Origin: Luteolibacter sp. Y139
GTDB taxonomy: Bacteria > Verrucomicrobiota > Verrucomicrobiia > Verrucomicrobiales > Akkermansiaceae
DNA length: 64,000 nt
Direction of reading: 5' to 3'
Assembly (NCBI RefSeq): GCF_038066715.1
Contig: NZ_JBBUKT010000002.1
Span: 558,001-622,000, forward strand
Shown here: positions 18,301 through 40,203 of the stretch, piece by piece
Layout of the letters: the number at the start of each line of letters is the position of its first letter
Position numbering within the stretch: the stretch's first letter is position 1
Program-made: the position numbers and the translations under genes
The notes under the pieces: model-generated
Told to the model about the DNA's origin: nothing
Seen by the model: the letters and a program-made list of their open reading frames with translations, nothing else
The model's database searches: none

Positions 18301-19040
18301 CGGACTTCGTTGTAGGTGATGTTCGAATTCGAATCGTCCGAATACTGCGAACGCCCCAGCCAGTTGTTGACGTCGTTCAGTTCGTTGAGGCGGAAGTTGG
18401 TGTCGACGAAGGCGACTTGGCTGCCATTGCGATACCAAGTCCATCGTCCACCGGTGGCGGCATTTGCTCCCACACCCGCCTGAAAGGTGGCGACGTAGTG
18501 GTACTGAGTGCCGGCCGTGGTCGCGAGCGTGCTGTCGGCACCCAATTCAGCCGCCCCGTCATTGCGGGCGACCAGCTTCTTGTCGTTGAAGGTGGTCCCG
18601 CGACATTCGGCGATCATCAGGTCGTCGCGGGAATTGGTCCCGCCTCCTGGAGCACCGGCGCTATTGCCGATCTCGCCGGTGCCTGAGGTATTCATGCTGC
18701 CGAAGTCGAACAACCGCTGCCAATTCTTCGCCGAGACCGGTATGGCCCAGATTTCGACGGTCATGTTCGTCTTTGACGAGACGATGCCATTCGGCAGGTC
18801 TAGATAGGCGGAGATCGTGGCTGCGGCCACGTTTCCATTCGACGTGCCGGGAAGTGTGACCACGGTGCCATTCCTCACCGCCCCGGCCCCGACGATAGTC
18901 GCCGGAGCAGCGGAAATGACGTCGGTGATGACCGTGCCATTGGTTTGATTGCCCGTGGTATTGAACGTCCACCGGTGGGTGACCGTCTGGGCTTCAGCGG
19001 AGGCCAGCAGGCCGAGGAGAAGGAGCGCTTTCCGGGACAT
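15357..19040 (-). CDS. Exported LamG / sugar dehydrogenase / diheme cytochrome fusion
   Basis: 1227 residues from the ATG at 19040 (MSRKALLLLGLLASAEAQ signal peptide). Order: LamG-like domain (about 20-255), an Ig/cadherin-like linker (about 260-350, YGKKAKLNVLANDSG), a glucose/sorbosone dehydrogenase-type six-bladed propeller (about 375-770; HNGGDLHFG, GDEGNG, GLRNPWRMGFD, YGWVYREG), then a cytochrome-type region resembling the TIGR03806/SO_2930 family. That region has CxxCH motifs at 937-941 (CMICH) and 1014-1018 (CSYCH). The tail ends in a small beta domain (FRIDTSDNLGSW, FFRVELLEN). The likely role is periplasmic oxidation of a sugar or alcohol with electrons passed to covalently bound heme; the quinone cofactor is family knowledge, not seen here. 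It is paralogous to the next gene. Confidence 0.87.
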   Translation of the reverse strand: MSRKALLLLGLLASAEAQTVTHRWTFNTTGNQTNGTVITDVISAAPATIVGAGAVRNGTVVTLPGTSNGNVAAATISAYLDLPNGIVSSKTNMTVEIWAIPVSAKNWQRLFDFGSMNTSGTGEIGNSAGAPGGGTNSRDDLMIAECRGTTFNDKKLVARNDGAAELGADSTLATTAGTQYHYVATFQAGVGANAATGGRWTWYRNGSQVAFVDTNFRLNELNDVNNWLGRSQYSDDSNSNITYNEVRLYDYALSQAQISANTAAGPDANFPAPSVTADVVTMLYGKKAKLNVLANDSGEIVRSSLIVESPPASGTATVSPDGTILYTHTTGTPAGDSFTYRISNSTGQTSTGTVTITFSSSLKIANAALNVPASPPATAYSLPNALGTLTFSQPLCLVTPPGETQRLFVCEKGGQLKVVPNVTAASPTSSVFLDLSGYLTTKSETIETSSECGLLGLAFHPNYATNRFFFISYSVIKSGLRYQRVSRFTTQAGNPNAADTTTERILIEQRDEFDNHNGGDLHFGPQDGYLYISVGDEGNGNDDPTFNSQLINKDLFSGILRIDVDRNMANSVEPTTHASIPLYSGVAAFAIPKTNPFVTVALGGDWNGTYNGSTVTGTVRREFWATGLRNPWRMGFDPATGALWCGDVGQSAREEVDIITRGGNYGWVYREGTIAGPRTTNPTMPANFLTAYHTGPVYDYGRDGDFGGRAVTGGRVYRGTRIGALTGKYIFGDHESGNIWAMDLNGTNVQRLAGEGNIAAFGYDPSNQDILLADIGDGIVRRLTTSTVANTYPATLSATGLFADLSDLSPSPGLVPYDVNLPFWSDNAIKRRWMVIPNGTSQFVWSKDGLWTLPTGTIWVKHFDMEMQRGVPASKKRIETRLIVKNASGAYGVSYRWNDAGTEATLVEDGGIDFALNITDNGNTVPQTWHIPSRAECMICHTSQAGHALSFNTRQLNLSSDMLGFTGNQLTTLQQQGYFTNNPGSPNLLPRHLRPTETAYSLEARVRSYLAVNCSYCHKSGGTGPPSWDGRPELTLAQTLLVNGSAANSGSDPLNKLVVPGDTAHSIVLHRMAVTGGFTRMPPLASNVIDSANVTLVTNWINGELAARQTYDAWRNSNFEPDNDPSGDPAADADGDGLNNRDEFLAGTDPHNGTSAFRPVTSSPPSKLSFTLPVNRSFRIDTSDNLGSWMPWDVPQNQGLPVAGGLVEIAFPAADPKKFFRVELLEN

Positions 19041-19140
19041 CGGCCGGGACGATAGGCGCATTCCGCGGGAAGGCAAAAGACTTCCGGTGACGGATGGGGT
19101 GAAGTTGCTTGAAAGAGATGCCGCGTCGCTCGCGAACGGC

Positions 19141-21855
19141 TCAATTCTCGATCAACTCCACCCGGAAGAAGCGTTTTGCATCGGCGGGCGGAAAGGCGAT
19201 TTCGACCAAACCTCCGGCGACGGGGAGGCCTTGGTTTTGCGGAATGTCCCACGGAGCCCACTGGCCGAGATTGCTGGAGACATCCACCCGGTAAGAACGG
19301 TTGGCCGGCAGCGTGAAGCGAAGCAATGGCGGAGTTGGCGAGACCTGGGGGCGGAAGGCGCTCGATCCGTTGTTCGGATCGGTTCCAGCAAGGAACTCAT
19401 CGCGGTTCGAGATTCCATCACCATCGGCATCGACTGCGGCTGCTCCCAGTGGATCATTGTCCGGCTCGAAATGCAGCGCGCGCCAAGCCTCATAGTTGAG
19501 CCGGTCGTCCAACTCTCCGTTGATCCAAGTCGTCAGTAGCGACACGCTGGCTGTATCGATAACATTGCTGGCGAGCGGCGGCATGCGGGTGAAGCCATTG
19601 GTGACCCCCACGCGATTGAGCACGATGGAGTGCAGCGTGTCGCCGGGGACCACGAGCTTGTTGACCGGATTGCCGTTGTTATTGGTTGCGCTGCCGTTGA
19701 CGAGACCGGTCGCATCAAGGAGTAGCTCGGGCCGTCCATCCCAAGCACCGCCGCCGGTGCCGCCTGCCTTGTGGCAATAGGAGCAATTCACGGCGAGGTA
19801 GGAGCGAACGCGGGCTTCGACCGAGTAGGCAGCTTCATCCCCGCGCAAATGGCGTGGCAGGAAATTGGGCGAGCCGGGGTTGTTAGGAAAGTAGCCCTGA
19901 TTGAAGAGGGTCGTGAGCTGGTTGCCCGTGTGGCCCGACATGTCGGACTCCAGATTGAGCTGCCGTGTATTGAAAGAGAGCGCATACCCGGCCTGCGGCG
20001 TGTGGCAGATCATGCATTGGCCGCGGGCAGGGATGGTCCAGGTCTGCGGCACGGGGTTCCCGTTTTCCGTCACCGCGAGCGGGAAGCTTTCGCCTTCATC
20101 CTCCACCAGTGTCGCCTCAGTGCCCGCGGCATTCCACTTGTAGCTGACTCCGTAGGCACCGGTGGCATTCTTCACCAGCAGACGGGTCTCGATGCGCTTC
20201 TTGCTGGCGGGGACGCCACGCTGCATCTCCATGTCGAAATGCTTCACCCAAATCGTGCCGGTGGGCAGGGTCCACTGGCCGTCCTTCGACCAGGTGAAAG
20301 TGGCGCTCGCGTTCGGCAGTGTGAACCAGCGGCGCTTGATGGCGTGATCGCTCCAGAAGGGCAGGTTCACGTCGTAGGGCACCACGCCCGGAGCGGGGGT
20401 GAGCGTAGCGACGTTCGAGAAGAGACCGGTTTCGCTAAGCAGGTCAGGGAAGGTGGTGCCGGTCGTGCTGGAAACCACGCGCATGATGCGATTCCCATCT
20501 TCATCCGCGATCAGGACATCCTGGGTCGCGGGATCGAGGCCAAATGCGGAGATGCCCCCCTCGCCGAGGATTCGCTGAACGCCACTGCCGTCCAGATTGA
20601 TCGTCCAGATATTGCCGCTGCCGTTGTCGCCGAAGATGTACTTGCCGTAGAGCGAACTGACCCCGCCACCGCGGATGACCACGCCGCCGATGATTGCGTT
20701 GCCGATGAAATTGGCCCCGCCGGTGGAGTGGGAATAGCTGTAGACCGGATCGATGGAGGTGAAGCCTGCGGGCTGCGTCGGGTGGTCGGGAGTTGAGTCA
20801 TCCCAAGGTCCTTCGGACGGCCCTTCCCGATAAACCCAGCCGTAGTTACCTCCCTTGGTAACGCGATTGACTTCCTCCCGCGAGCTGCCGCCAACATCGC
20901 CAACCCACATGTCTCCGTTCAGCGGGTCGAAAGAGTAGCGCCAGGGATTGCGCAAGCCGACAGCCCAGAATTCGCTGCGCACGTAAGCCGATGCGATCGG
21001 CAGGCCATTGAAGGTGGTGGCTCCCACGAAAGGGTTGTCCGCAGGAATCGAGTAGCGGGCGATCCCTGCGTCGCGCTTCACGGCGTCCGGTGGAGGACTC
21101 GTCGGATATTCGGCGGGATTCGGATGCGGACTTGGCTCCAGATTCCCCGGCTTCTTGTCGACATCGAGCCGCATAATGGCCGAGAAGAAGTCCTTGTCGA
21201 TCCGCTGCGAGTTGAACTGCTGATCATTCTGGGCGCCCTCGTCACCCATGCTGTAGTAGAGATATCCGTCCGTTCCGAAATGCAGGTCGCCGCCGTTGTG
21301 ATTCACCTGCTCGTCGCGTTGCTCAATCAGGACAAGCTCGCTGGTGGAGTCGGCAGCATTTGGATTTGCCGCCTGGGTGGTGAACCGGGACAAACGGTCG
21401 TGCAAGGGAGGCGTGCTGCCGCTTCCGATGCCGGAGCTGTAGGTGATGTAGAAGTAGCGGTTTTGAGCATACTGCGGATGGAAGGCCAGTCCGAGCAAAC
21501 CCATCTCGGAACCTGTATTTCCCGTGCGCAGCACTTCATTCGCCCGGGCATCAAGCAGTCCCACCAGATCGAGAAACAACACCTTGGTCGGCGATGCCAA
21601 GGTAACATCGGGGATCACATAAATCTTCCCACCCTGTTCCACGACAAAGAGCCGCTTGTTGTCCCCCGGCGGAGAGACGAGGCAGACCGGCTCGGTGAAC
21701 GTCAGGGTAGGGAACGCATTTTCCAGTGCGATGCTCGTCGGCGGTGGCGTGGCCGGCACATTCAGCGCGGGATTCGGCTGACGCAGCGGCAATGGATCCG
21801 CAAGGGCGGAGGCGACCAGGAAGACTAACAGCGACGGGAGGGGGGGCCGGCACAT
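19141..21855 (-). CDS. Exported sugar dehydrogenase / diheme cytochrome fusion (paralog)
   Basis: 904 residues from the ATG at 21855, chosen because it opens a signal peptide (MCRPPLPSLLVFLVASALAD). The frame is open further upstream, but that extension overlaps the divergent ydcF promoter region. It lacks the LamG domain of its downstream paralog but otherwise matches it: propeller landmarks (HNGGDLHFG, GLRNPWRYSFD, NYGWVYREG), the shared FWSDHAIKRRW and KHFDMEMQRGVPASKKRIETR blocks, heme motifs at 614-618 (CMICH) and 691-695 (CSYCH), and the same C-terminal domain ending FFRVELIEN. The two genes are 100 bases apart on the same strand and arose by tandem duplication. Likely a periplasmic oxidase-type enzyme delivering electrons to heme; the substrate is unknown. 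Confidence 0.87.
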   Translation of the reverse strand: MCRPPLPSLLVFLVASALADPLPLRQPNPALNVPATPPPTSIALENAFPTLTFTEPVCLVSPPGDNKRLFVVEQGGKIYVIPDVTLASPTKVLFLDLVGLLDARANEVLRTGNTGSEMGLLGLAFHPQYAQNRYFYITYSSGIGSGSTPPLHDRLSRFTTQAANPNAADSTSELVLIEQRDEQVNHNGGDLHFGTDGYLYYSMGDEGAQNDQQFNSQRIDKDFFSAIMRLDVDKKPGNLEPSPHPNPAEYPTSPPPDAVKRDAGIARYSIPADNPFVGATTFNGLPIASAYVRSEFWAVGLRNPWRYSFDPLNGDMWVGDVGGSSREEVNRVTKGGNYGWVYREGPSEGPWDDSTPDHPTQPAGFTSIDPVYSYSHSTGGANFIGNAIIGGVVIRGGGVSSLYGKYIFGDNGSGNIWTINLDGSGVQRILGEGGISAFGLDPATQDVLIADEDGNRIMRVVSSTTGTTFPDLLSETGLFSNVATLTPAPGVVPYDVNLPFWSDHAIKRRWFTLPNASATFTWSKDGQWTLPTGTIWVKHFDMEMQRGVPASKKRIETRLLVKNATGAYGVSYKWNAAGTEATLVEDEGESFPLAVTENGNPVPQTWTIPARGQCMICHTPQAGYALSFNTRQLNLESDMSGHTGNQLTTLFNQGYFPNNPGSPNFLPRHLRGDEAAYSVEARVRSYLAVNCSYCHKAGGTGGGAWDGRPELLLDATGLVNGSATNNNGNPVNKLVVPGDTLHSIVLNRVGVTNGFTRMPPLASNVIDTASVSLLTTWINGELDDRLNYEAWRALHFEPDNDPLGAAAVDADGDGISNRDEFLAGTDPNNGSSAFRPQVSPTPPLLRFTLPANRSYRVDVSSNLGQWAPWDIPQNQGLPVAGGLVEIAFPPADAKRFFRVELIEN

Positions 21856-21991
21856 GGGGCGGAAGATATGCAGCGCGGGTGCCAGAACAAGCCCTTTGAG
21901 GTGAAACTTGGCATTGCATTTTGAGATGGCGGCAAGCCACCCGGGCTTGACAATTGGCGGCTTGCGAAGGTGCTTCGGCGCGGTGAGAAGC

Positions 21992-22582
21992 ATGCGCATC
22001 CGTCGGTTTGGCCGCGGCGTCGGGATCCTGACGCTGGTGGTTGCGCTGTGGCTGGCTGCGGTGGCAGGGTGGATCGTGGCATTTGGCGGCACGGATCACG
22101 CCCAGCGGTCCGATTGTGCGATCGTGTTGGGAGCGGCGGCGTATGGCAGCAAGCCCTCGCCGGTCTTTGCGGAGCGCATCAACCATGCCGTTTCCCTTTA
22201 TCAGTCGGGCACGGTGAAGTGCCTGCTTTTCACCGGCGGCAGCGTGATCGAGGCGGACCAATCGGAAAGCGCGGTGGCGCGCAGCCATGCAATTGCTGCC
22301 GGGGTGCCCGCCGACGCGATTTTCACGGAAAGCCAGTCCCGCACCACCGAGCAAAATCTGGTGCAAGCGAAGGGCGTGATGAAGGAACACGGCCTGAAGA
22401 CCGCTGTGATCGTCAGCGATCCACTGCATCTGAAGCGCGCGGCCTCGATGGCCGAGGATCTGGGCATCGATGCGGTGACGTCGCCGACGCCGACGTCACG
22501 CTATCGGACATGGAAGGTGAAGACGGGCTTCCTGATGCGGGAGGTGTTTTACCTCCATGGCTATTGGATCACGGGGAAGTGA
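21992..22582 (+). CDS. YdcF/SanA-family membrane protein (DUF218)
   Basis: 196 residues from the ATG at 21992, with GAGAAG 5 bases upstream. One N-terminal membrane helix (about 8-28, VGILTLVVALWLAAVAGW) precedes a DUF218 domain: DCAIVLGAAAYGSKPSPVF near residue 45, then LLFTGGS, SRTTEQN and DPLHLKRA. Family members such as SanA and YdcF are linked to envelope barrier function and nucleotide-like ligand binding, though their chemistry is not settled. It is divergent from the dehydrogenase-cytochrome gene, with 136 bases between starts, and meets the small minus-strand gene at 22592 end to end. Confidence 0.88.
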   Translation: MRIRRFGRGVGILTLVVALWLAAVAGWIVAFGGTDHAQRSDCAIVLGAAAYGSKPSPVFAERINHAVSLYQSGTVKCLLFTGGSVIEADQSESAVARSHAIAAGVPADAIFTESQSRTTEQNLVQAKGVMKEHGLKTAVIVSDPLHLKRAASMAEDLGIDAVTSPTPTSRYRTWKVKTGFLMREVFYLHGYWITGK

Positions 22583-30540: not shown

Positions 30541-32421
30541 TCAGAAGAAAAGTAGGGCAATGTGGTAGGCGACGAAAGCCGCCACCCAGGCGAAGACGCT
30601 CATGAAGGCGAATTGTCCGGCGGCCCATTTCCACGAACCCGACTCGCGGGCGACGACCGCAGAAGTCGGCAGGCACTGCAGGGCGTAAATGAAGAAGACC
30701 AGCAACGAGACGACGGCGGGAATCGTGAACATCTTCCGCCCATCCGGCCAAGTCTCCTCGGACAAGCGCGTGCGCAAGCGTTTCCAAGTCTCTTCGTCGG
30801 TGTCCGCTTCTTCCACGTGGTAGAGCTGGGTCATCGTGGAGACGAATACCTCGCGCGCGGCGAAGGAGGTGAGAATGGCGGTGCCACCACGCCAGTCCAA
30901 GCCCAGCGGCCTGACCGCCGGCTCGGTGAGGTGACCGACACGGCCGATGACGCTGTGATCCAACTGCTCGGCTGGGTCATCACTCCCGGACTTCGGGTAG
31001 GTCTGAGCCGCCCAGAGGAGCACACTGATGGCGAAAATGACGGTGCCCGCCTTGTAGAGGAAGGACCAGGCGCGACCGGCGACGTGGCGGAAGATGTAGC
31101 TCCACTGCGGCCCGCGGTAGGGCGGCAGCTCCAGCATGAAGTGCTTCGGCATCTCCTCCGGACCGAGCTTGCCGCGGAGAATGCGCGCGACGATCAAGGC
31201 GGTCACGGTACCCAGGACATAAATCGCGAAGAACACCAGCGCCTGGGTTAGCTTGCTTTCCGAACTCAGGAGCAGCGGTACCAGCACCAGATAGACCGGC
31301 AAGCGCGCGGAACAGCTCATCCATGGTGCGACGAACATCGTGGTCAGCCGTTCCTTCGCCGAGTCGATCGTGCGGGTGGCCATGATCCCGGGAATCGCGC
31401 AGGCATACGAGCTGAACAGCGGCAGGAAGGCCTTTCCGCTCAAGCCGGCCTTGCCCATCAGTCCATCCATCAGGAAGGCGGCACGGGCCATGTAGCCGGA
31501 GCTTTCCAGCAAGCCGATGAAAAGGAACAGCAGCACGATCTGCGGCAGGAAGACCACCACACTGCCAACGCCACCGATGATCCCATCTACGATGAGGCTG
31601 CGTAGATCACCTTCCGCCATGGCGCCGGTGACATAATTGGCCAACCACTTTTGTCCGTCCTCGATCCAGCCCATCGGCAGCTCCGCGAAGGAGAAGATCG
31701 CCCAGAAGATCGCCAGCATGGTGAGGACGAATGCGATCCAGCCGAAGATCGGATCCAGCAGCCATTGGTCGAGCTTGTCGGAAAGTGTCGAGGTATGGCC
31801 ATCGGGCCGGCGGGCGGCCACTTCGCACATGCGCAGGACCAGCGCCCGGCGTCGCTCGCCGATCTCGCCTTCCGGACCGTGCGTCCACGGCGTATCCGCC
31901 ACCGGAGGGAAGGGGTGGCGCAGTGCCTGCTTGAGTTCCACGATGCCTTTGCCGGCATTCGCCTGTACCGGCACGACGGGCACGCCGAGTTCTTCGGAAA
32001 GCTTCTGGGGATCGAGCCGCAGGCCGGCCTTTTCGGCCATATCCACCATGTTCAGGGCGACGACGACCGGCACGCCGGTTTCGATCACCTGCAAGGTCAG
32101 CACGAGGTGACGCTCGAGATTCGAGGCGTCCACCACCGAGACCACCACGTCCGGCCTCGGCTCGCCCTCGATTTCGCCGAGCAGCACCTTGCGGGCGATC
32201 TGCTGGTCGACGCTATCACCATCGAAGTCATAGCAACCGGGAAGATCGACCAGCCGGAGCTTGTGGCCGTGTGGCGTGAAAAACTCTCCGCTTTTGCGCT
32301 CCACCGTGACGCCGGCATAGTTGCCGACCTGCTGGTTGGCCCCCGTCAGGGCATTGAAGAGCGTGGTTTTCCCGGCATTGGGGTTGCCGGCGAGGGCGAC
32401 GGTTTCGAGGGAACCGGACAT
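30541..32421 (-). CDS. feoB: Ferrous iron transport GTPase FeoB
   Basis: 626 residues. The N-terminal G domain has G1 GNPNAGKTT (12-20), G2 around NYAGVTVERKSG, G3 DLPGCYD and G4 NMVD. Then come the gate regions and about eight to nine membrane helices, including SGYMARAAFLMDGLMGK and SSYACAIPGIMATRTID. The conserved Cys-x-x-Pro of the gate is CAIP here, as in some FeoB subtypes. It is shorter than the E. coli protein (773 residues), mainly because the C-terminal part is compact. It imports Fe2+ across the inner membrane. Order: feoA, feoB, then the Cys-rich gene. No Fur box was identified in the upstream region. Confidence 0.96.
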   Translation of the reverse strand: MSGSLETVALAGNPNAGKTTLFNALTGANQQVGNYAGVTVERKSGEFFTPHGHKLRLVDLPGCYDFDGDSVDQQIARKVLLGEIEGEPRPDVVVSVVDASNLERHLVLTLQVIETGVPVVVALNMVDMAEKAGLRLDPQKLSEELGVPVVPVQANAGKGIVELKQALRHPFPPVADTPWTHGPEGEIGERRRALVLRMCEVAARRPDGHTSTLSDKLDQWLLDPIFGWIAFVLTMLAIFWAIFSFAELPMGWIEDGQKWLANYVTGAMAEGDLRSLIVDGIIGGVGSVVVFLPQIVLLFLFIGLLESSGYMARAAFLMDGLMGKAGLSGKAFLPLFSSYACAIPGIMATRTIDSAKERLTTMFVAPWMSCSARLPVYLVLVPLLLSSESKLTQALVFFAIYVLGTVTALIVARILRGKLGPEEMPKHFMLELPPYRGPQWSYIFRHVAGRAWSFLYKAGTVIFAISVLLWAAQTYPKSGSDDPAEQLDHSVIGRVGHLTEPAVRPLGLDWRGGTAILTSFAAREVFVSTMTQLYHVEEADTDEETWKRLRTRLSEETWPDGRKMFTIPAVVSLLVFFIYALQCLPTSAVVARESGSWKWAAGQFAFMSVFAWVAAFVAYHIALLFF

Positions 32422-32432
32422 TGGGAAATCAA

Positions 32433-32684
32433 TCAGGCGACGGCGACCATCACCTGGCTCGCCAACTCGCGGCTGAGGGCGAGACGGGTGCCGCAGACGG
32501 AGCAGATCAAATTGCGGCCATCGGCCAGCTTGCGAACCTGAAGGGTCTCGCAGAATCCAAGCTTGCGGAGCTGATCGCAGGCCGGGCCATTCAGGAACTT
32601 GATGCGGAAATCACAACCGACCTTCGCCTGGCTCAGGCTGAGCAAGCTGTCGGTTTCGAGTTCCTGGGCCGTCGCGTGCGCCAT
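32433..32684 (-). CDS. feoA: Ferrous iron transport accessory protein FeoA
   Basis: 83 residues from the ATG at 32684, which has AGGA upstream; an ATG at 32738 would add 18 residues with no good ribosome site. The body is the small SH3-like FeoA fold: LLSLSQAKVGCDFRIKFLNG, DQLRKLGFCETLQVRKL and the closing TRLALSRELASQVMV. FeoA normally binds FeoB and is needed for transport. It also has three Cys (VGCDF, PACDQ, ICSVCG) that could bind metal. feoB follows after 11 bases. Confidence 0.88.
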   Translation of the reverse strand: MAHATAQELETDSLLSLSQAKVGCDFRIKFLNGPACDQLRKLGFCETLQVRKLADGRNLICSVCGTRLALSRELASQVMVAVA

Positions 32685-32829
32685 CGCCGCGATGGTCCTG
32701 CAATTGAGATGAGTTTGCAACAAGATTTCCGGGGGCATTTGTCACGCCGGTCTCGGGCGACAGGGTAGCTCCGAAATCCCGCCGGATCGGGCTTCATTCT
32801 TCCGTCGCCCTCATCATCATGGGTGCGAA

Positions 32830-33318
32830 ATGCCCGTCCCGGTAGAAACAGAGGAGGAGAGCTCAACCATTCCCTTGGGGTTACGGTTGGCGATTCTCTT
32901 TGTCTGGATCGTGAACGTCGGACTTGTTTTCGTCCTTCTCGGTCTTTCGTTTCTCGTCATCGCGACCCTTATTCCTGCGGCTCTTAGCGCAGCTCCGTAT
33001 CCTCAGGGGGTAGTGGTCAGCATGGGCGCGGTGGTTGCCGAGATGATCGTGGTCGGAATGCTCTCGGGTGCCATCTGGCTCGCCATGCATCTGGAGAGTC
33101 GCCCGACCGGCTTGTCACCCCGGCACCCGGGACGCGGGATCGTTTTGCCGATGGTGGGCACTCCCATAGTCGGGGGGATCATCGCGGTCCCGTTTTGGGT
33201 TCCCTCCATCTTCATCCACGACGTTTCCCGGACGTTTCCGTGGCCTCTCGTCTGGGGTGCCGCTGGAATCGGCGCATTTTCCCTGTATCGCTATCTCGAC
33301 CGCATCTTGCCGAAATGA
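32830..33318 (+). CDS. Membrane array protein 1 (four-helix, unknown function)
   Basis: 162 residues from the ATG at 32830. A Glu-rich N-terminus (VETEEESS) precedes four predicted membrane helices: about 17-42, 52-80, 105-125 and 133-150. Between helices 2 and 3 is a hydrophilic loop (HLESRPTGLSPRHPGRG). Then come VLPMVG, FWVPSIFIHDVSRTFPWPL and the C-terminal LYRYLDRILPK. I recognise no named family. Its stop overlaps the start of the next copy by four bases (ATGA). Divergent from feoA with about 145 bases between them; no Fur-type site was seen there. Confidence 0.85.
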   Translation: MPVPVETEEESSTIPLGLRLAILFVWIVNVGLVFVLLGLSFLVIATLIPAALSAAPYPQGVVVSMGAVVAEMIVVGMLSGAIWLAMHLESRPTGLSPRHPGRGIVLPMVGTPIVGGIIAVPFWVPSIFIHDVSRTFPWPLVWGAAGIGAFSLYRYLDRILPK

Positions 33319-33830
33319 TGGAAGAGCCCGAATGGGAACAGGGAAGCACAGGAGCTCATCCGGTGACGGAAGAAGTGGCTGTGCCTCTTGGTCCTCGGCT
33401 TGCCATGCTCTTTTTGTGGGCTGTCACCGTGGTCCTCATTTTCGTCATTCTTAGTCTGACGCTCATTGTGATCCCGACCCTTGTCTCTTCGGCTCTCAGC
33501 GCAGATCCGTATCCCAAGCGGGTGTGGGGCAGTCTTGTCGCGGTGGTGACCGTGATGACCGCGGTTGGAATGCACTCGGGCACCACCTGGTTGTCCATGC
33601 AAATGGAGAGTCGCTGGACCGGGGCGCTGCCCCCGCACCCGGGACGTGGGATCGTTTTGCCGATGGTGGGCATTGTCGTGATTGCGGGGATCATCGCGGT
33701 CCTGTTTTGGGTTCCCTCCATCTTCATCCACGACGTTTCCCGAACGTTTCCATGGCCTCTCATCTGGAGCACCGTTGGAATCGGCGCATTTTTCCTGTAT
33801 CGCTATCTGGACCACATCTTGCCGAAATGA
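33315..33830 (+). CDS. Membrane array protein 2 (four-helix, unknown function)
   Basis: 171 residues from the ATG at 33315 (a second ATG follows at 33318). It is the closest copy to protein 1: the segment from HPGRGIVLPMVG to the end is nearly identical, including WVPSIFIHDVSRTFPWPL, with LDHILPK at the tail. The N-terminus MMEEPEWEQGS is shared with copy 3 but not with copy 1, so the array looks like a mosaic of duplications. Four membrane helices are predicted. Start and stop overlap both neighbours, giving strict translational coupling. Confidence 0.85.
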   Translation: MMEEPEWEQGSTGAHPVTEEVAVPLGPRLAMLFLWAVTVVLIFVILSLTLIVIPTLVSSALSADPYPKRVWGSLVAVVTVMTAVGMHSGTTWLSMQMESRWTGALPPHPGRGIVLPMVGIVVIAGIIAVLFWVPSIFIHDVSRTFPWPLIWSTVGIGAFFLYRYLDHILPK

Positions 33831-34363
33831 TGGAAGAGCCCGAATGGGAACGCGAGGAAGTGACTGGTCCGCCGGTGATCAGCCAGCTTGCGTTGCCGTT
33901 CGGCCTGCGGGTGACGATTTTGTTTGTCCGTGCGGTGATCGCTTTGATCGTGCTTCCGACCTTGTTCTCAGGCGTGCTCGCGGTCTGGGGAATTGTTGAT
34001 ATGTCCTACCTCTGGCAGCGTCCTTTTGATGCGATCGCCAATCGTGTGATTGTTTGGGTTTCCTTCGTGGGACTGGTCACGATGCTGTGTTCGGCCACCT
34101 GGCTTCACGGCCATCTGGGCGGGCAGACCCAGTCGGCGGATAGGATCGGAGTCGCGAGGAGTCAGGATCACGTGGTGCGCCAGATCTTCTTCCCGGCGCT
34201 GGCCTTCACCGCGATTTACAGCTTTCTGGCAGTCCTGATGTGGGTGCCGTCCTTGGTGGCCAGTGGTATCGGGAAGACCTATCCTTGGCCACTGTTCTGG
34301 GGATCGGTTGGCGGCGGCTCGGTCCTTCTGTATCGCTATCTCGATCGCATCTTGCCGAAGTGA
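33827..34363 (+). CDS. Membrane array protein 3 (four-helix, unknown function)
   Basis: 178 residues from the ATG at 33827, the longest copy. The N-terminus MMEEPEWERE matches copy 2, but the core has diverged (VLPTLFSGVLAVWG, ATWLHGHLGGQTQSAD). The loop before helix 3 is longer and carries Asp/Arg/His (RIGVARSQDHVVRQ). The C-terminal half keeps the array pattern: LMWVPSLVASGIGKTYPWPLFWGSVGGGSV and LYRYLDRILPK. Unlike copy 2 it lost the HPGRGIV motif. It ends overlapping the next ATG by one base (TGATG). Confidence 0.85.
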   Translation: MMEEPEWEREEVTGPPVISQLALPFGLRVTILFVRAVIALIVLPTLFSGVLAVWGIVDMSYLWQRPFDAIANRVIVWVSFVGLVTMLCSATWLHGHLGGQTQSADRIGVARSQDHVVRQIFFPALAFTAIYSFLAVLMWVPSLVASGIGKTYPWPLFWGSVGGGSVLLYRYLDRILPK

Positions 34364-34884
34364 TGGACGTGCCTGAATCGGAACGCGAGAAGACCACCAC
34401 TCGTCCAGTGGTCGAAGAACCACTCCCGCCGTTCGGGTTGCTGGCGGCGATCCTGTTTGTCCGGTTGATCGCCGCACTGACGTTCTTCATAACGGCGGGA
34501 GCAGTCTTGACCGCGCTGGTTCAAGTGATGGTCGGCCCGTTTGCGGAAGACCCCTTTCCGGACGCCCTTGTCGCGAGCCTGCTTTCCGTCGCGGTGTCAG
34601 TGGTGCTGGCCGTGATGCAGGGAGGCGCGGTGTGGTTGGATTCGGTTCTGAGCAAACGGCCCTTTTCTTGGGCGGGAGAGCAGGGCGGGCATCCTGCGAG
34701 ACTGTTGTTCCTGCCCATCATTGGCTGCGTGGCAGGCTATGGCTCGGTGGCGGTACTTGCCTGGCTACCCTCGATTGGGAAAAGCAACGTTGCCGAGACA
34801 TGGCTATGGCCGCTGGCGTGGGGAAGCATTGGCGCGGGAGCACTGTTCCTTTATCGTTATCTCGACCGGAGCCTGCCGCGCTGA
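34363..34884 (+). CDS. Membrane array protein 4 (four-helix, unknown function)
   Basis: 173 residues from the ATG at 34363. The N-terminus is MDVPESEREKTTTRP, then the shared PPFGLLAAILFVR entry. Four membrane helices. The middle loop reads SKRPFSWAGEQGGHPARLLFLP, so the G-HPxR motif seen in copies 1, 2 and 5 is back. The end is LYRYLDRSLPR. It is followed by only 14 bases before copy 5, with a GAGGAT ribosome site. No catalytic motif or metal-binding set is apparent. Confidence 0.85.
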   Translation: MDVPESEREKTTTRPVVEEPLPPFGLLAAILFVRLIAALTFFITAGAVLTALVQVMVGPFAEDPFPDALVASLLSVAVSVVLAVMQGGAVWLDSVLSKRPFSWAGEQGGHPARLLFLPIIGCVAGYGSVAVLAWLPSIGKSNVAETWLWPLAWGSIGAGALFLYRYLDRSLPR

Positions 34885-34898
34885 GGATATTTCAATCT

Positions 34899-35411
34899 AT
34901 GGAGGAACCCCTTGCTAATTCGGAAATCGAGGTGGAAAAGACACCGCTTGGGATTCACCTCACGCTGCAGTTCTTGCGGCTATCGATGGTGGTGATGGTT
35001 TTTCCATTGTTGGGATCCTGCCTGCTGGCAGTGGCGTCGCTTTTTGTTGGGGCGTTCTTCTCCTCCACCGTCCCCAAGGCCATCGGCTTCAGCATGATGG
35101 GGCTGGGCAGTTTCATCATGATGCTGACTACGATCACCGCGACCGCATGGATGGAATGCCATCTCAACAAGAGCCCGGTTCCCTTTGCCTCTGCCTGGGT
35201 GGCGGGCCGGCCCGGGCACCCGGCACGGAAACTGGTCTTGCCTGCCGTCGGCAGCGTCGCATTCTACGGCTATGTTGCCGTCTTGTTCTGGATCGCCGCG
35301 GATCCCGGTCCGGAGTCGGAGCGGAGCGCCGGGTGGGCAGTCGCGTGGGGCAGCGCGGCGGTGATGGCCACCTTGCTGTATCGTTATTTGAAAGCGAAGT
35401 TGCCCGAGTGA
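34899..35411 (+). CDS. Membrane array protein 5 (four-helix, unknown function)
   Basis: 170 residues from the ATG at 34899. It is the most diverged copy: MEEPLANSEIEVEKTPLGIHLTLQFLR at the start, but its charged middle loop (NKSPVPFASAWVAGRPGHPARKLVLP) aligns with copies 1, 2 and 4. WVPS is replaced by FWIAADPGPES and the end is LYRYLKAKLPE. Four membrane helices are predicted. It meets uxaC end to end (13 bases apart, convergent). It is the only copy that does not overlap its upstream neighbour. Confidence 0.82.
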   Translation: MEEPLANSEIEVEKTPLGIHLTLQFLRLSMVVMVFPLLGSCLLAVASLFVGAFFSSTVPKAIGFSMMGLGSFIMMLTTITATAWMECHLNKSPVPFASAWVAGRPGHPARKLVLPAVGSVAFYGYVAVLFWIAADPGPESERSAGWAVAWGSAAVMATLLYRYLKAKLPE

Positions 35412-35424
35412 CGGGCGGATGCTG

Positions 35425-36825
35425 TTAGAAGCCGAAGTAGCGGCTCGCGTTTCCGCTGCAGACGTCTGCGATCAGCTTCGACAGCGCATCAAAGTCGTCC
35501 GGCAGTTCACCGCGATCCGTTTCGGTGCCGATCAGATTGCAGAGGATCCGCCGGAAGTATTCGTGGCGCGGGAAGGAGAGGAAGGAACGCGAGTCCGTGA
35601 GCATGCCGACGAAGCGCGAGAGCAGGCCGGTGGACGACAGCGCATTGAGCTGGAGCTCCATGCCGTCCTTCTGATCGAGGAACCACCAGCCGCTGCCGAA
35701 CTGGATCTTGCCCGCGACGGTGCCGTCCTGGAACGCACCGGTCATGGCGGCGAAGAGGTAGTTATCACGCGGATTGATATTGTAGAGGATCACTTGCGGC
35801 AGGCAGCCGCGTTGGGCAAGCGTGCCTAGATAGGTGATCAGCGCCGCGCCCTGGCGCTCGTCGCCGATGGTGTCGAAGCCAGCATCCGGGCCGAGCAGGT
35901 TGAACATCCGCGGGTTGACATTGCGGAAGGGGCCGAGGTGGAGCTGCTTGGTCCAGCCCTTCGCGGCATCCTGCTGGCCGAAGAAGACCATCAGGAAGAA
36001 GGTGAACTTCTCCTTTTCTTCGGCAGTGACCGGCAGGCCACGGCGCGCCTTGTCAAAGATGATCGAGGCATCGGCATCATCGCACGGCAATCCCGGGCAG
36101 CGCTCCAATCCATGGTCGGAGAGACGGCAGCCGGCGGCGTGGAAATCATCGTGGCGCTTCTGCAGGGCCTGCAGCAGGTCCGAGACGTGATGGATGCCAG
36201 TGTCGGTGATTTCCTCGAGCTTCTCGATCCATGCATTGAATGCCTTCGGGCTATCGACGGCGAAGGCCTTGTCGGGACGGAAGGTTGGCAGGACCTTCGT
36301 TTGCAGCGGGCTGAAGGCGATGGTCTCGTGATGGTCTAGCGGATCGGCTGGATCGTCGGTGGTGCCCACCATCTTCACCTGGAATTTGTCGAGGATGCCA
36401 TGGACGCAGAAGTCCTTTTCCGCGAGGCGCGCGTTGGCTTCTTCCCAGATCTCGTCAGCAGTGGCCGGGCTCAGGAGAAGATCGATCCCGAAGTAGCGAC
36501 GCAACTCGAGATGCGTCCAGTGGTGGATCGGGTTGCGCAGGGTGTAGGGCACAGTCTCGGCCCAGGCCTGGAACTTCTCGCGAGGGGAAGCGGAGCCGGT
36601 GATGTATTCCTCATCGACGCCATTGGCGCGCAGGAGCCGCCACTTGTAATGGTCTCCGCCCAGCCAGATATCGGCGAGGTTTTCCCAGCGATGATTGGTC
36701 GCGATCTCCTTCGGCGAGAGATGGCAGTGGTAGTCGTAGATCGGCTGGTCCTTGGCCACCTCGTGAAACAGACGGCGAGCGGTCGGCGATTGGAGGAGGA
36801 AGGATTCTTCGTCGAGGTAGGCCAT
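35425..36825 (-). CDS. uxaC: Glucuronate isomerase
   Basis: 466 residues, the usual length. It isomerises D-glucuronate to D-fructuronate (and D-galacturonate to D-tagaturonate) in the first cytoplasmic step of hexuronate catabolism. Family landmarks: YDYHCHLSPKEIATN near residue 30 (metal-site His pair), GGDHYKWRLLRANGV, TVPYTLRNPIHHWTHLEL, VGTTDDPADPL and the C-terminal TDSRSFLSFPRHEYFRRILCNLIG. It is a member of the amidohydrolase superfamily. It stands 82 bases after moaE on the same strand, but no other uronate genes (uxaB, kduID) are in the window. It fits a pectin or glucuronoxylan diet alongside the xylanase-like and beta-helix proteins. Confidence 0.97.
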   Translation of the reverse strand: MAYLDEESFLLQSPTARRLFHEVAKDQPIYDYHCHLSPKEIATNHRWENLADIWLGGDHYKWRLLRANGVDEEYITGSASPREKFQAWAETVPYTLRNPIHHWTHLELRRYFGIDLLLSPATADEIWEEANARLAEKDFCVHGILDKFQVKMVGTTDDPADPLDHHETIAFSPLQTKVLPTFRPDKAFAVDSPKAFNAWIEKLEEITDTGIHHVSDLLQALQKRHDDFHAAGCRLSDHGLERCPGLPCDDADASIIFDKARRGLPVTAEEKEKFTFFLMVFFGQQDAAKGWTKQLHLGPFRNVNPRMFNLLGPDAGFDTIGDERQGAALITYLGTLAQRGCLPQVILYNINPRDNYLFAAMTGAFQDGTVAGKIQFGSGWWFLDQKDGMELQLNALSSTGLLSRFVGMLTDSRSFLSFPRHEYFRRILCNLIGTETDRGELPDDFDALSKLIADVCSGNASRYFGF

Positions 36826-36907: not shown

Positions 36908-37384
36908 TTACCCGTGACGGGGGTGATGGACGTGGTCGCGCACGTCCTGGTGCCGGTGGCCCGCCTCATGGCAGTGATCGCAGCGGACCCAGCCGGAAGT
37001 GCCGTCGGCGAAGTGCTCCTTCTTCCAAATCGGGACGCGGAACTTTACCTCATCGATGATGTAGCGGCAGGCATCGAAGGCGGCATCGCGATGCGCCGCG
37101 GTCACCACCACCACCACCGCGAGTTCGCCGATGGCGAGGCTGCCGACGCGATGGTGGCAGCGCGCGTGGAGGATCTCGAATTTCTGCCGGGCTTCGTGGA
37201 CGATGCGGTTCCCTTCCTTCTCTGCCAAACTACGATAAGCCTCGTACTCGAGCGAATGCACGGCCTGGCCCTGGTGGTGATTCCGCACCCAGCCCTCGAA
37301 CGAGCAGAAGCCGCCGGCTGCGGGGTCGAGGATGCTTTCGCGCAGCGCGCGCGGGTCGATGGGATCGGTGACGATGGCAAACAT
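36908..37384 (-). CDS. moaE: Molybdopterin synthase large subunit MoaE with His/Cys-rich tail
   Basis: 158 residues. The MoaE fold is clear: FCSFEGWVRNHHQGQ, LEYEAY, ARCHHRVGSLAIGE, VVVTAAHR and the catalytic Lys in PIWKKEHFADG. With MoaD it transfers two sulfurs to precursor Z to make molybdopterin. The last 25 or so residues (WVRCDHCHEAGHRHQDVRDHVHHPRHG) are unusual: two Cys and about seven His, a probable metal-binding tail. It starts 3 bases after the mobA-moaD fusion stop, so it is co-translated with its own small subunit. Confidence 0.95.
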   Translation of the reverse strand: MFAIVTDPIDPRALRESILDPAAGGFCSFEGWVRNHHQGQAVHSLEYEAYRSLAEKEGNRIVHEARQKFEILHARCHHRVGSLAIGELAVVVVVTAAHRDAAFDACRYIIDEVKFRVPIWKKEHFADGTSGWVRCDHCHEAGHRHQDVRDHVHHPRHG

Positions 37385-37387
37385 GGC

Positions 37388-38206
37388 TCAACCTCCGGCA
37401 ACAGGGGGAATGAAAACGATTTCGTCACCATCGGAAATCAGCTCGTCCCACTCGCAGAAGTCGCCATTGCGGGCGGCCCGCAGACTGCCGATTTCCAAGG
37501 GAAGGCGGTGGAGGAACCGCAGCTCCTCATAGAGCCCGGCGGGGGTGCAGGCGATGGTCTCGACCCGCTCCTCATCGAGTCCACGGGATTCGCGGAGCTT
37601 GGCGAAGTAGAGGACGTGGACGACCTTCGTCGTCACGCCATGCTGGAGCTTGGCGAAGCACTCGGCGAGTTCCTGGGGCGTGTTGGCATTGTCGAGTGCC
37701 TCGGCATGGGGAAGAGCGAGCACGAGCGGATTGAGCGCTTCGAGGAAATGCCGGGCGCAATGATCTCCCCGGCCAAGCGCCTCCGCAGCCTTAGAAATAC
37801 CAGAAACCTCGTAGATGGTGCACAGCGGCTCCGCCCGCCCATCGATGCGGTTGGCGAAGCAGGTTGCGTGGCGCGTGGGGTCACGATGGGCGAAGAGGTG
37901 CGCCAGCGTGGTCTCATCGAGCAGGAACAAATCACAGCTGATCACCAACACGGGAGAGTCGGGTTTCTTCGCATGAATGGCGGCCAAGGCAGCCAAGGGG
38001 CCACCGCCCGCGACTTGATCCGCCACGACGGGCAGGTCGATCGGAGGAGCGGAGTCATCGCGCATCGAAAGGAACACCTCGCCACCAATCAATTGGGCGA
38101 GTCGCGCCAGCCAATCGATTTGGCGAACGCCATCCGGACGCTCGATGGTCGCCTTGTCTCGGCCCATGCGCTGGCTCTTGCCGCCGATGAGGATGAGGGT
38201 GGTCAT
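37388..38206 (-). CDS. MobA-MoaD fusion (molybdenum cofactor guanylyltransferase + sulfur carrier)
   Basis: 272 residues joining two functions. Residues about 1-190 are MobA-like: LILIGGKSQRMGRDKA (nucleotide loop), then VISCDLFLLDE (Asp of the metal site) and ERCxx-type EPLCTIYEVSG. Residues about 193-272 are MoaD-like: VHVLYFAKLRESRGL to the DEIVFIPPVAGG end whose Gly-Gly is the thiocarboxylate carrier. MobA adds GMP to molybdopterin; MoaD gives sulfur to MoaE. The two activities are at opposite ends of the pathway. The start overlaps the moaC stop by 4 bases and moaE follows after 3 bases. A separate MoaD is not seen in the window. A frameshift or sequencing artefact is unlikely because the frame is continuous. 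Confidence 0.92.
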   Translation of the reverse strand: MTTLILIGGKSQRMGRDKATIERPDGVRQIDWLARLAQLIGGEVFLSMRDDSAPPIDLPVVADQVAGGGPLAALAAIHAKKPDSPVLVISCDLFLLDETTLAHLFAHRDPTRHATCFANRIDGRAEPLCTIYEVSGISKAAEALGRGDHCARHFLEALNPLVLALPHAEALDNANTPQELAECFAKLQHGVTTKVVHVLYFAKLRESRGLDEERVETIACTPAGLYEELRFLHRLPLEIGSLRAARNGDFCEWDELISDGDEIVFIPPVAGG

Positions 38207-38679
38207 TTCGAGTCAGCCTTGTAGTCGCTCTTGCCGCCGGTCTTCTCCAACAGCTTCACGCCGTGGATCACCATCGCCGGATCGAGTGCCTTGCACATGT
38301 CGTAGAAAGCGAGGGCGGCGATGCTCGCGCCGGTCAGCGCTTCCATTTCCACGCCGGTCTTGCCAGTGGTCTTGCAGGTGCAGCGGATGCAGGCTTCCCG
38401 GCCCTCGAAAGTCACCTCGAACTTGCACGAGTCGAGCGGCAGTGGGTGACAGAGAGGAATGAGCGATGATGTCTGCTTCGCTCCCATCGTGCCCGCGAGG
38501 ATGGCCGTCTGAAACACGGGACCTTTCTTCGTGGCAAAGTCGCGACCGTCGAACTGGGCCGCCACCGCGTCATTCACCGTGACTCGTGCCTCGGCAGTTG
38601 CAATGCGGACCGTGATCTCCTTCGCCGACACATCGACCATTGCGGCTTGGTTCTGCTCGTTGACGTGGGACAGGGACAT
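38203..38679 (-). CDS. moaC: Cyclic pyranopterin monophosphate synthase MoaC
   Basis: 158 residues, normal size. Motifs: MVDVSAKEITVR-ATAEARV near residue 14, KKGPVFQTAILAGTMGAKQTSSLIPLCHPL (the conserved KGxxxxTAxxAGxxxAK-LIPLCHPL block), then GVEMEALTGASIAALAFYDMCKALD with the catalytic Lys region at the end. It completes the conversion of GTP to cPMP with MoaA. Its ATG overlaps the moeA stop by one base, and its own stop overlaps the mobA-moaD start by four bases. Confidence 0.97.
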   Translation of the reverse strand: MSLSHVNEQNQAAMVDVSAKEITVRIATAEARVTVNDAVAAQFDGRDFATKKGPVFQTAILAGTMGAKQTSSLIPLCHPLPLDSCKFEVTFEGREACIRCTCKTTGKTGVEMEALTGASIAALAFYDMCKALDPAMVIHGVKLLEKTGGKSDYKADSK

Positions 38680-39833
38680 TAGGGAAAGGGATGGAAATCA
38701 AAGGTGTCAGCCGGCCGACCTGGCGGAACCTCGACGATGCCGCAGGATCCCGCTACCGAAATGAAATCGCCGGAGTTCCCTGGAGGACGAGCGAGCAATG
38801 TGCCATCCGGGCCCGTCGCCACGGTCAGTAGCCATGAGAACTTCGGCAGCGGCGTGGGAACCTCATTCATGCGCACCCGAGGCGGAGAGAACTCTCGTCC
38901 TTCCAATCGCGACAGCGCTGGGAGCACGTGGCGCGTGAAGGTCGCAAGCACCGACACCGGATTCCCCGGTAGTGCGAACACCGCAGGTGGACCGGACCAG
39001 AAGGCCAGCGGTTTGCCAGGGCGTTGCTCGACGCCGTGGAACGCGGGCTTGCCAAGCCGCTCCTCTAACAGACCGCGAATGAAGTCTTTCTTGCCCTTCG
39101 AGATCCCGCCGCAAATCAGCAGCACATCGCAGCTCGCCAGCGCCTCGTCGAGTTGTCGCCCACAGATCGCCGGATCGTCCGGAGCATGATCGTGGAAAAC
39201 GATGGGACTGCCACGACGGGTGAGCATGGCTTCAAGCATGGGGCCATTGGAGCGGCGGATCTCCCATGGCTGTGGCGTGGCGTCCGGCGGCACCGCTTCG
39301 TCACCGGTCGAAAGGATCGCTACCTTTGCTCGACGGAAGACCTCCGCCTCGGTCAGTCCCACCGATGCAGCGATGGCGATCTCCACCGGGCCGATGGAGT
39401 TGCCAGCAGCCACCAGCATTGCTCCGGCGTCAGCGTCGCTTCCGGCATCGTGGATGAACTGGCCTTTCTTGAAGCTCGCCGCGGGCCGTCCCGAATCAAG
39501 GTCTTCATAGGGAACGACCGTGTCACAATCGTCTGGCACCACGGCACCGGTCATGATCTCCCACGCCTGTCCCGGCGGAAGCGCACCTGGCGGCGGATCT
39601 CCCGCAGCGTGCAGGCCAGCGAAAAGGACAGGACCGGTAGCGGGCAACGTGTCGGCGGCAAAGGCAATCCCATCCATCATCGCCCGGCGGTAGGGCGGGA
39701 AGGGGCGGTCGGCGCTGATCGGCGCAGCCAAGGTCCTGCCGAGGGCAGCGGCCAGCGCAACCGTCTCCGTGCCGAGGGGGCGCAGCGAGGCCGTGTGCGC
39801 ATCGGCTTCGGCGAGGGTTAGCAGACGGTCCAT
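38679..39833 (-). CDS. moeA: Molybdopterin molybdenumtransferase MoeA
   Basis: 384 residues from the ATG at 39833, which follows the transporter stop by 4 bases; an ATG at 39884 would overlap it. MoeA landmarks: FPPYRRAMMDGIAF, GAVVPDDCDTVVPYEDL, GPVEIAIAASVGLTEAEVFRRAKVAILSTGDE, CGGISKGKKDFI and LPGNPVSVLATF. It inserts molybdate into adenylylated molybdopterin. No mogA/moaB adenylyltransferase is seen in the window. Order on this strand: VOC, transporter, moeA, moaC, mobA-moaD, moaE. Confidence 0.97.
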   Translation of the reverse strand: MDRLLTLAEADAHTASLRPLGTETVALAAALGRTLAAPISADRPFPPYRRAMMDGIAFAADTLPATGPVLFAGLHAAGDPPPGALPPGQAWEIMTGAVVPDDCDTVVPYEDLDSGRPAASFKKGQFIHDAGSDADAGAMLVAAGNSIGPVEIAIAASVGLTEAEVFRRAKVAILSTGDEAVPPDATPQPWEIRRSNGPMLEAMLTRRGSPIVFHDHAPDDPAICGRQLDEALASCDVLLICGGISKGKKDFIRGLLEERLGKPAFHGVEQRPGKPLAFWSGPPAVFALPGNPVSVLATFTRHVLPALSRLEGREFSPPRVRMNEVPTPLPKFSWLLTVATGPDGTLLARPPGNSGDFISVAGSCGIVEVPPGRPADTFDFHPFP

Positions 39834-39837
39834 GGCA

Positions 39838-40203
39838 TCAAGATTTGACTCCGGAGGGCAGCAAAGCCAGCGCGAGGAAAGCACAAATGGCCAGCGAAAC
39901 CCCGACGTAGACCGGAATCGTCAGCGTTTCCTTGAAGAGCAGGAAGCCCATCACATTCCCGATGATGATCGATCCGGCGCCAAACAAGGCCACCGTGCGT
40001 CCCAGCTCCATCGCCGAGTAGATGTAGAGCTGGCCGAAAACGGCGATCTGACGGATGACCGTGTAGAGCAGGAACCACCACGTGAGGAATGCCGCGGGCG
40101 TAAAGCCCTGCGTCTTCATCGCCCGCGCCCCGATCACGTCGGAGATCGAGAACAGCAGCTGCGAGCCGATGATGAGGAAGGCGGGCGATTTCCAGAAAGG
40201 CAC
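39838..40203 (-). CDS. Half-size DMT/EamA-type transporter (121 residues)
   Basis: 121 residues with four hydrophobic spans: about 9-29 (FLIIGSQLLFSISDVIGARA), 37-58 (FLTWWFLLYTVIRQIAVFG), 68-88 (VALFGAGSIIIGNVMGFLLF) and 95-116 (VYVGVSLAICAFLALALL). The size and the GSxxIxGNVxGFLLFKE pattern fit the drug/metabolite half-transporters, which pair to make a full unit. The substrate is not known. It sits inside the molybdenum cofactor cluster, 4 bases before moeA, which is the only hint of a role. Confidence 0.78.
   Translation of the reverse strand: MPFWKSPAFLIIGSQLLFSISDVIGARAMKTQGFTPAAFLTWWFLLYTVIRQIAVFGQLYIYSAMELGRTVALFGAGSIIIGNVMGFLLFKETLTIPVYVGVSLAICAFLALALLPSGVKS

Follow-up and report, generated by a model that had tools for sequence, protein, structure and literature searches.

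The locus raises the question of whether five adjacent genes for similar small membrane proteins encode the parts of one machine or are variants of a single protein. They lie in the window, by which we mean the whole 64,000-nucleotide stretch of Luteolibacter sp. Y139 DNA that was analysed. All five are in-frame paralogues on the plus strand, spanning 32830-35411 and encoding 162, 171, 178, 173 and 170 amino acids. The genes and their immediate neighbours are as follows.

30541..32421, minus strand: feoB, beyond feoA
32433..32738, minus strand: feoA, the divergent upstream neighbour; shared in relatives G008 and G011 only
32830..33318, plus strand: copy 1, 162 aa, predicted four-helix membrane protein
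33315..33830, plus strand: copy 2, 171 aa; start overlaps the copy 1 stop (ATGA); AlphaFold model with four helices
33827..34363, plus strand: copy 3, 178 aa; start overlaps the copy 2 stop (ATGA)
34363..34884, plus strand: copy 4, 173 aa; 1-nt start overlap with the copy 3 stop (TGATG)
34899..35411, plus strand: copy 5, 170 aa; the copy closest to the single genes of G008 (46%) and G011 (41%)
35425..36825, minus strand: uxaC (glucuronate isomerase), the convergent downstream neighbour

The first-pass annotation described a run of five consecutive paralogues of 162 to 178 residues, with starts and stops overlapping at the first three junctions. Open reading frames and alignment agree on the former, and the overlaps can be read directly in the DNA (4 nt at 1/2, 4 nt at 2/3 and 1 nt at 3/4). 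Between copies 4 and 5 there is a 14-nt gap and no overlap. The five are homologous end to end, with 29-65% identity and 21 invariant columns in the alignment. The entry and ending that had been given for them, PxGxR/L and LYRYLDR-LP, hold as general motifs but not to the letter: copy 5 enters with PLGIH and ends in LYRYLKAKLPE, and copy 2 ends in LYRYLDH. No further credible copies were found elsewhere in the 7.1-Mb genome. A scan for sigma-70 promoters found none. Terminator-like sites exceed those in shuffled sequence, but they are short consensus matches within genes and were set aside. The five copies are probably cotranscribed from one message.

Hydropathy of the copies shows hydrophobic blocks compatible with about four helices. 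AlphaFold models, built from the five window sequences for two of the copies, have four long helices at moderate confidence (copy 5, pLDDT 71.9; copy 2, pLDDT 71.1). The two lines of evidence agree with the first prediction of about four membrane helices per copy, for which structure prediction of single copies had been proposed as a check. Under the positive-inside rule, positively charged segments fall on the cytoplasmic side of the membrane. Most members have an acidic N-terminal tail and carry positive charge at the C-terminal end and on the loop that joins helices 2 and 3. Taken with the rule, this charge pattern suggests that both ends are inside, so that both tails and the middle loop are probably cytoplasmic. 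The proteins presumably reside in the inner membrane.

No family had been recognised by eye, and none was recognised in Pfam, NCBIfam, PHROG, PADLOC or solved structures. The proposed HMM search against Pfam and DUFs was run with 14 members, namely the five copies and nine genes of relatives, all with an intact open reading frame. Pfam-A and NCBIfam gave no match above the curated cut-off; the weak hits were far below it, and each family hit one of the 14 members only (E up to 1). DUF443 had no match in the 14 members (E up to 1). The copies matched none of the PADLOC models of anti-phage defence and nothing of weight in PHROGs. Plasmid records gave no match to copy 2 and phage records none to copy 5, and no relative emerged when the five-copy alignment was used in a broad public scan. 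Foldseek against the PDB gave no match with E < 0.001. The best VIA-align result (Z 9.1, rmsd 3.3 over 96 residues) was to a designed channel and is within the range of common helical arrangements; ferritin-like and designed-bundle fold matches were set aside as generic helical resemblance. A profile search of solved structures returned weak partial matches only, the best being TARP gamma-2 (E 0.02-0.07 over 51 residues), which we read as chance between hydrophobic helices. A literature search found no paper on such arrays in the Luteolibacter/Haloferula group.

That group is the window's genus, and a family profile built from the 14 members found full-length members in 8 of its 18 genomes. 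A full-length member is absent from the other 10, or from 9 if a doubtful gene in G014 is counted. This possible remote member (L173:2887-3423, 178 aa, adjoining an ilvD-like gene) matched 62 profile positions and is clearly similar at its N-terminal end only. Outside the genus, 195 family, 387 phylum and 387 order genomes yielded weak partial hits only, none of them credible; these larger searches scored only the first candidates per genome and might overlook a very distant relative. Weak partial hits in G013, G017, G204, G212, G377, G699, G135 and G616 were left out of the counts. Judged by these comparisons and at the sensitivity used, the family is undescribed and genus-restricted. Five copies occur in the window genome (G000) only, a number that for the window species rests on one genome. 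The first-pass annotation had reasoned that single-copy genomes with no conservation of the array would speak against its reading, and the comparison of copy number that it called for found just that: relatives carry one, three or none. The array is a gene family that has expanded locally, not a five-part machine conserved among relatives.

The family is found in two types of neighbourhood. In G000, G008 and G011, it sits between feoAB and uxaC, with one gene there in G008 and G011. In G003, G007, G009, G010 and G015, the gene immediately upstream of it is of the DUF5069 type and runs divergently from a sulfatase gene. This second type is a sulfatase/DUF5069/deoA neighbourhood, as we take these genes to be from inspection of their sequences. 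G000, G008 and G011 keep the sulfatase/DUF5069 pair with no family gene behind it. The single gene of Haloferula sp. BvORR071 (G015) is like the window copies in being of the same family, full length and in an open frame; it differs in being one copy beside the DUF5069-type gene instead of feoAB and uxaC. G009 has a three-gene tandem of the family behind its DUF5069-type gene (L022:7804-9436), with the last two genes overlapping; this is apparently a separate, independent expansion.

Some neighbouring features deserve a record of their own. The DUF5069-type gene (L023:8514-8954 and its relatives) is well conserved and divergent from the sulfatase gene in many genus genomes, and a literature search found no paper mentioning DUF5069. 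The window genome has a second, diverged uxaC-like gene (G000:C1:1189309-1190685, 59% identity). Near the array, the minus strand of the window carries a molybdopterin gene run at 36908-39884, which we take from the sequences to be moaE, a mobA-moaD-like fusion (272 aa), moaC and moeA. Also on the minus strand, two adjacent large open reading frames at 15357-22092 encode 1239 and 983 aa; they are paralogues in tandem and share 63% identity over 894 residues.

The divergent position next to feoA had prompted the thought of an iron or stress link, with the family acting in ferrous iron uptake or iron stress and driven from the region shared with feoAB. The position is kept in G000, G008 and G011, but the linkage is not conserved across the genus beyond these three. 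The family of the other clade adjoins the DUF5069-type gene, and feoAB is elsewhere in 4 of the 4 such carriers whose feo locus was read. There is no family gene and no uxaC near feoA/feoB in G002, G003, G007, G009, G012, G014 and G015. In addition, feoB is present in 17 of the 18 genus genomes, many of them family-free, and the feoA-array intergenic region has a conserved block at the feoA start and little conservation towards the array. We regard an iron accessory role as very improbable.

The same comparison bears on the idea, also from the first-pass annotation, that the five are co-translated subunits of one hetero-oligomeric membrane complex. Overlapping stop and start codons at three junctions would suit such a complex, as would the similar lengths and the same predicted fold in the two modelled copies. 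However, relatives in the same neighbourhood and elsewhere manage with one gene, 10 of the 18 genus genomes have no full-length member, and the G009 trio has no one-to-one match with the five window copies. Nor need the coupling signal subunit assembly, since a duplication that spans the junction carries the coupling along with it, and coupling is therefore also its expected residue. A required complex of five does not fit these genomes, and we consider the hetero-oligomer quite unlikely. With most carriers getting by on a single copy and many relatives lacking the family, the array is neither a five-part machine nor a general feo component.

The signs of how the copies arose are in the junctions, where blocks of 113 nt, each reaching from the end of a gene into the start of its downstream neighbour, recur along the array.

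33232..33344, plus strand: junction block 1/2, end of copy 1 and start of copy 2; direct repeat family D2
33744..33856, plus strand: junction block 2/3, 88% identity to the 1/2 block
34277..34389, plus strand: junction block 3/4, 76% identity to the 2/3 block

Identity between copies is also mosaic. Copies 1 and 2 had been called almost identical in DNA over their second half. This was too strong, with 45-nt windows there at 70-98% identity and the 113-nt junction block at 88%, but the contrast between halves is real: 16 of 28 fourfold sites differ in the first half, compared with 5 of 32 in the second (Fisher p=0.001). In column shuffling, the longest run of polymorphic sites shared by this pair has p=0.001, with no correction for the 10 pairs. 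The first ~30 nt of copies 2 and 3 stand out from the background as shared (N-terminal run p=0.0002 by the same shuffling, likewise uncorrected), and the N-termini reported as common to them are borne out. The 113-nt blocks and mosaic DNA identity suggest that the copies expand and mix by recombination. They are also in keeping with the original proposal of a repeatedly expanding, overlapping set.

The following course of events would account for the array. A single gene would have been amplified to five in the window species by tandem duplication, and the copies would recombine with one another, aided by the homology blocks across each stop/start junction. Exchange or unequal crossing-over through these blocks would add or remove whole in-frame genes. 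The overlapping stop and start would be copied along in the exchange, and because the blocks cross the junction, frames and coupling would stay intact. Copy 5 is the best candidate for the gene in the ancestral position, since by sequence it is closest to the single gene found at the same place in G008 and G011. In the tree, the grouping of copy 5 with those two genes has 92/94 support, below the tool's own threshold, and copies 3 and 4 are without resolved placement; for these reasons, an older duplication followed by loss in the relatives may instead have occurred.

In a stretch that is otherwise conserved, no gene changes as fast as this family does: it has 46% identity to G008 and 41% to G011, compared to 75-95% and 68-95%, respectively, for the syntenic neighbours. 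The dN/dS of copy 5 against its orthologues is 0.46 and 0.40, rough values with dS near 1, which suggests that they are held as coding sequence, but weakly. Across the members, identity peaks where helix 1 is entered and along helix 4, while loops 2 and 3 and the outer half of helices 1-2 are the least alike. Within the set of five copies, and likewise within the three orthologues, the C-terminus too shows high identity. Weak constraint extends to the copies themselves, with dN/dS among them at 0.36-0.70 and a ratio of 0.78 for the second half of copies 1 and 2. Together with the patchy presence (8 of 18 genus genomes) and fast divergence, this would agree with near-equivalent copies of a dispensable orphan gene, kept by drift or a slight dosage gain, their variety being functionless. 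Nevertheless, all five frames and all nine genes of relatives are open, positions F25, W84, W146 and W150 (copy 5 numbering) are conserved family-wide, and the copies differ widely yet retain motifs that drift alone would erode. We hold neutral or dosage duplication to be a real, if lesser, possibility, and at least as likely as the immunity-like protection considered below.

Our preferred account, to which we give about an even chance, is that these small inner-membrane proteins form a rapidly diverging family confined to the genus, that a single gene is sufficient, and that it has been amplified here to five recombining variants. The copies are most likely versions of a single stand-alone envelope protein made together, not dedicated subunits. 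Their role could be envelope protection or tuning where variety or dosage is useful, for example an immunity-like action against membrane-acting toxins, although we rate this as doubtful. Small membrane proteins commonly occur as tandem families confined to one lineage, and most of these families lack an explanation. The present array is a clean example: its neighbourhood is conserved, single-copy relatives are available for comparison, the genus has another tandem expansion, and the junction blocks can account for the multiplication of copies with frame and coupling intact. The array overturns no known system, and it offers a defined gene set for deletion.

Among known systems, the tandem immunity genes esaG, tsaI and tipC invite comparison. 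By analogy, each window copy might guard against a variant membrane-acting toxin of competitors. The array does have the general tandem-immunity pattern of non-identical tandem paralogues, conserved blocks and mosaic exchange, along with rapid divergence and patchy distribution. Recombination at conserved blocks drives the evolution of the esaG and tipC arrays; tsaI (DUF443) genes stand in strings of non-identical copies, and their product is a polytopic membrane protein (PMC9484751). The window array is like all three in its paralogue strings and homology blocks, like esaG and tipC in mosaic exchange, and like tsaI in being multi-pass. It differs from these type VII secretion system (T7SS) immunity genes in phylum, in having four predicted helices and not five, and in having overlapping genes, and little recombination was found among tsaI genes (PMC9484751). 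The window proteins match neither DUF443 nor another immunity family nor PADLOC. The neighbourhoods that were examined (feoAB, uxaC and molybdopterin genes; sulfatase/DUF5069/deoA) showed no toxin gene or secretion system, T7SS included, a search of the window genome for a colicin pore-forming domain found none, and Rhs-core genes are in 17 of the 18 genus genomes irrespective of family presence. Lack of a linked toxin may also be compatible with orphan immunity arrays. On balance, an immunity-like repertoire appears rather unlikely. It would be a long shot that this is an undescribed genus-specific envelope immunity family, a self-recombining repertoire outside known toxin systems; if true, the stop/start junctions of overlapping genes would double as the recombination blocks that maintain it. 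The link to tandem immunity genes is one of analogy only. The staphylococcal lpl genes encode lipoproteins, as opposed to four-helix membrane proteins, and no homology is claimed, but they share with the window array a junction-spanning block between neighbouring genes. In lpl, a block of ~130 nt is shared by neighbours, exchange takes in the 3' part of a gene together with the 5' part of its successor, and copy number varies (PMC9484751). Exchange through the junction blocks of the window array would follow the same logic.
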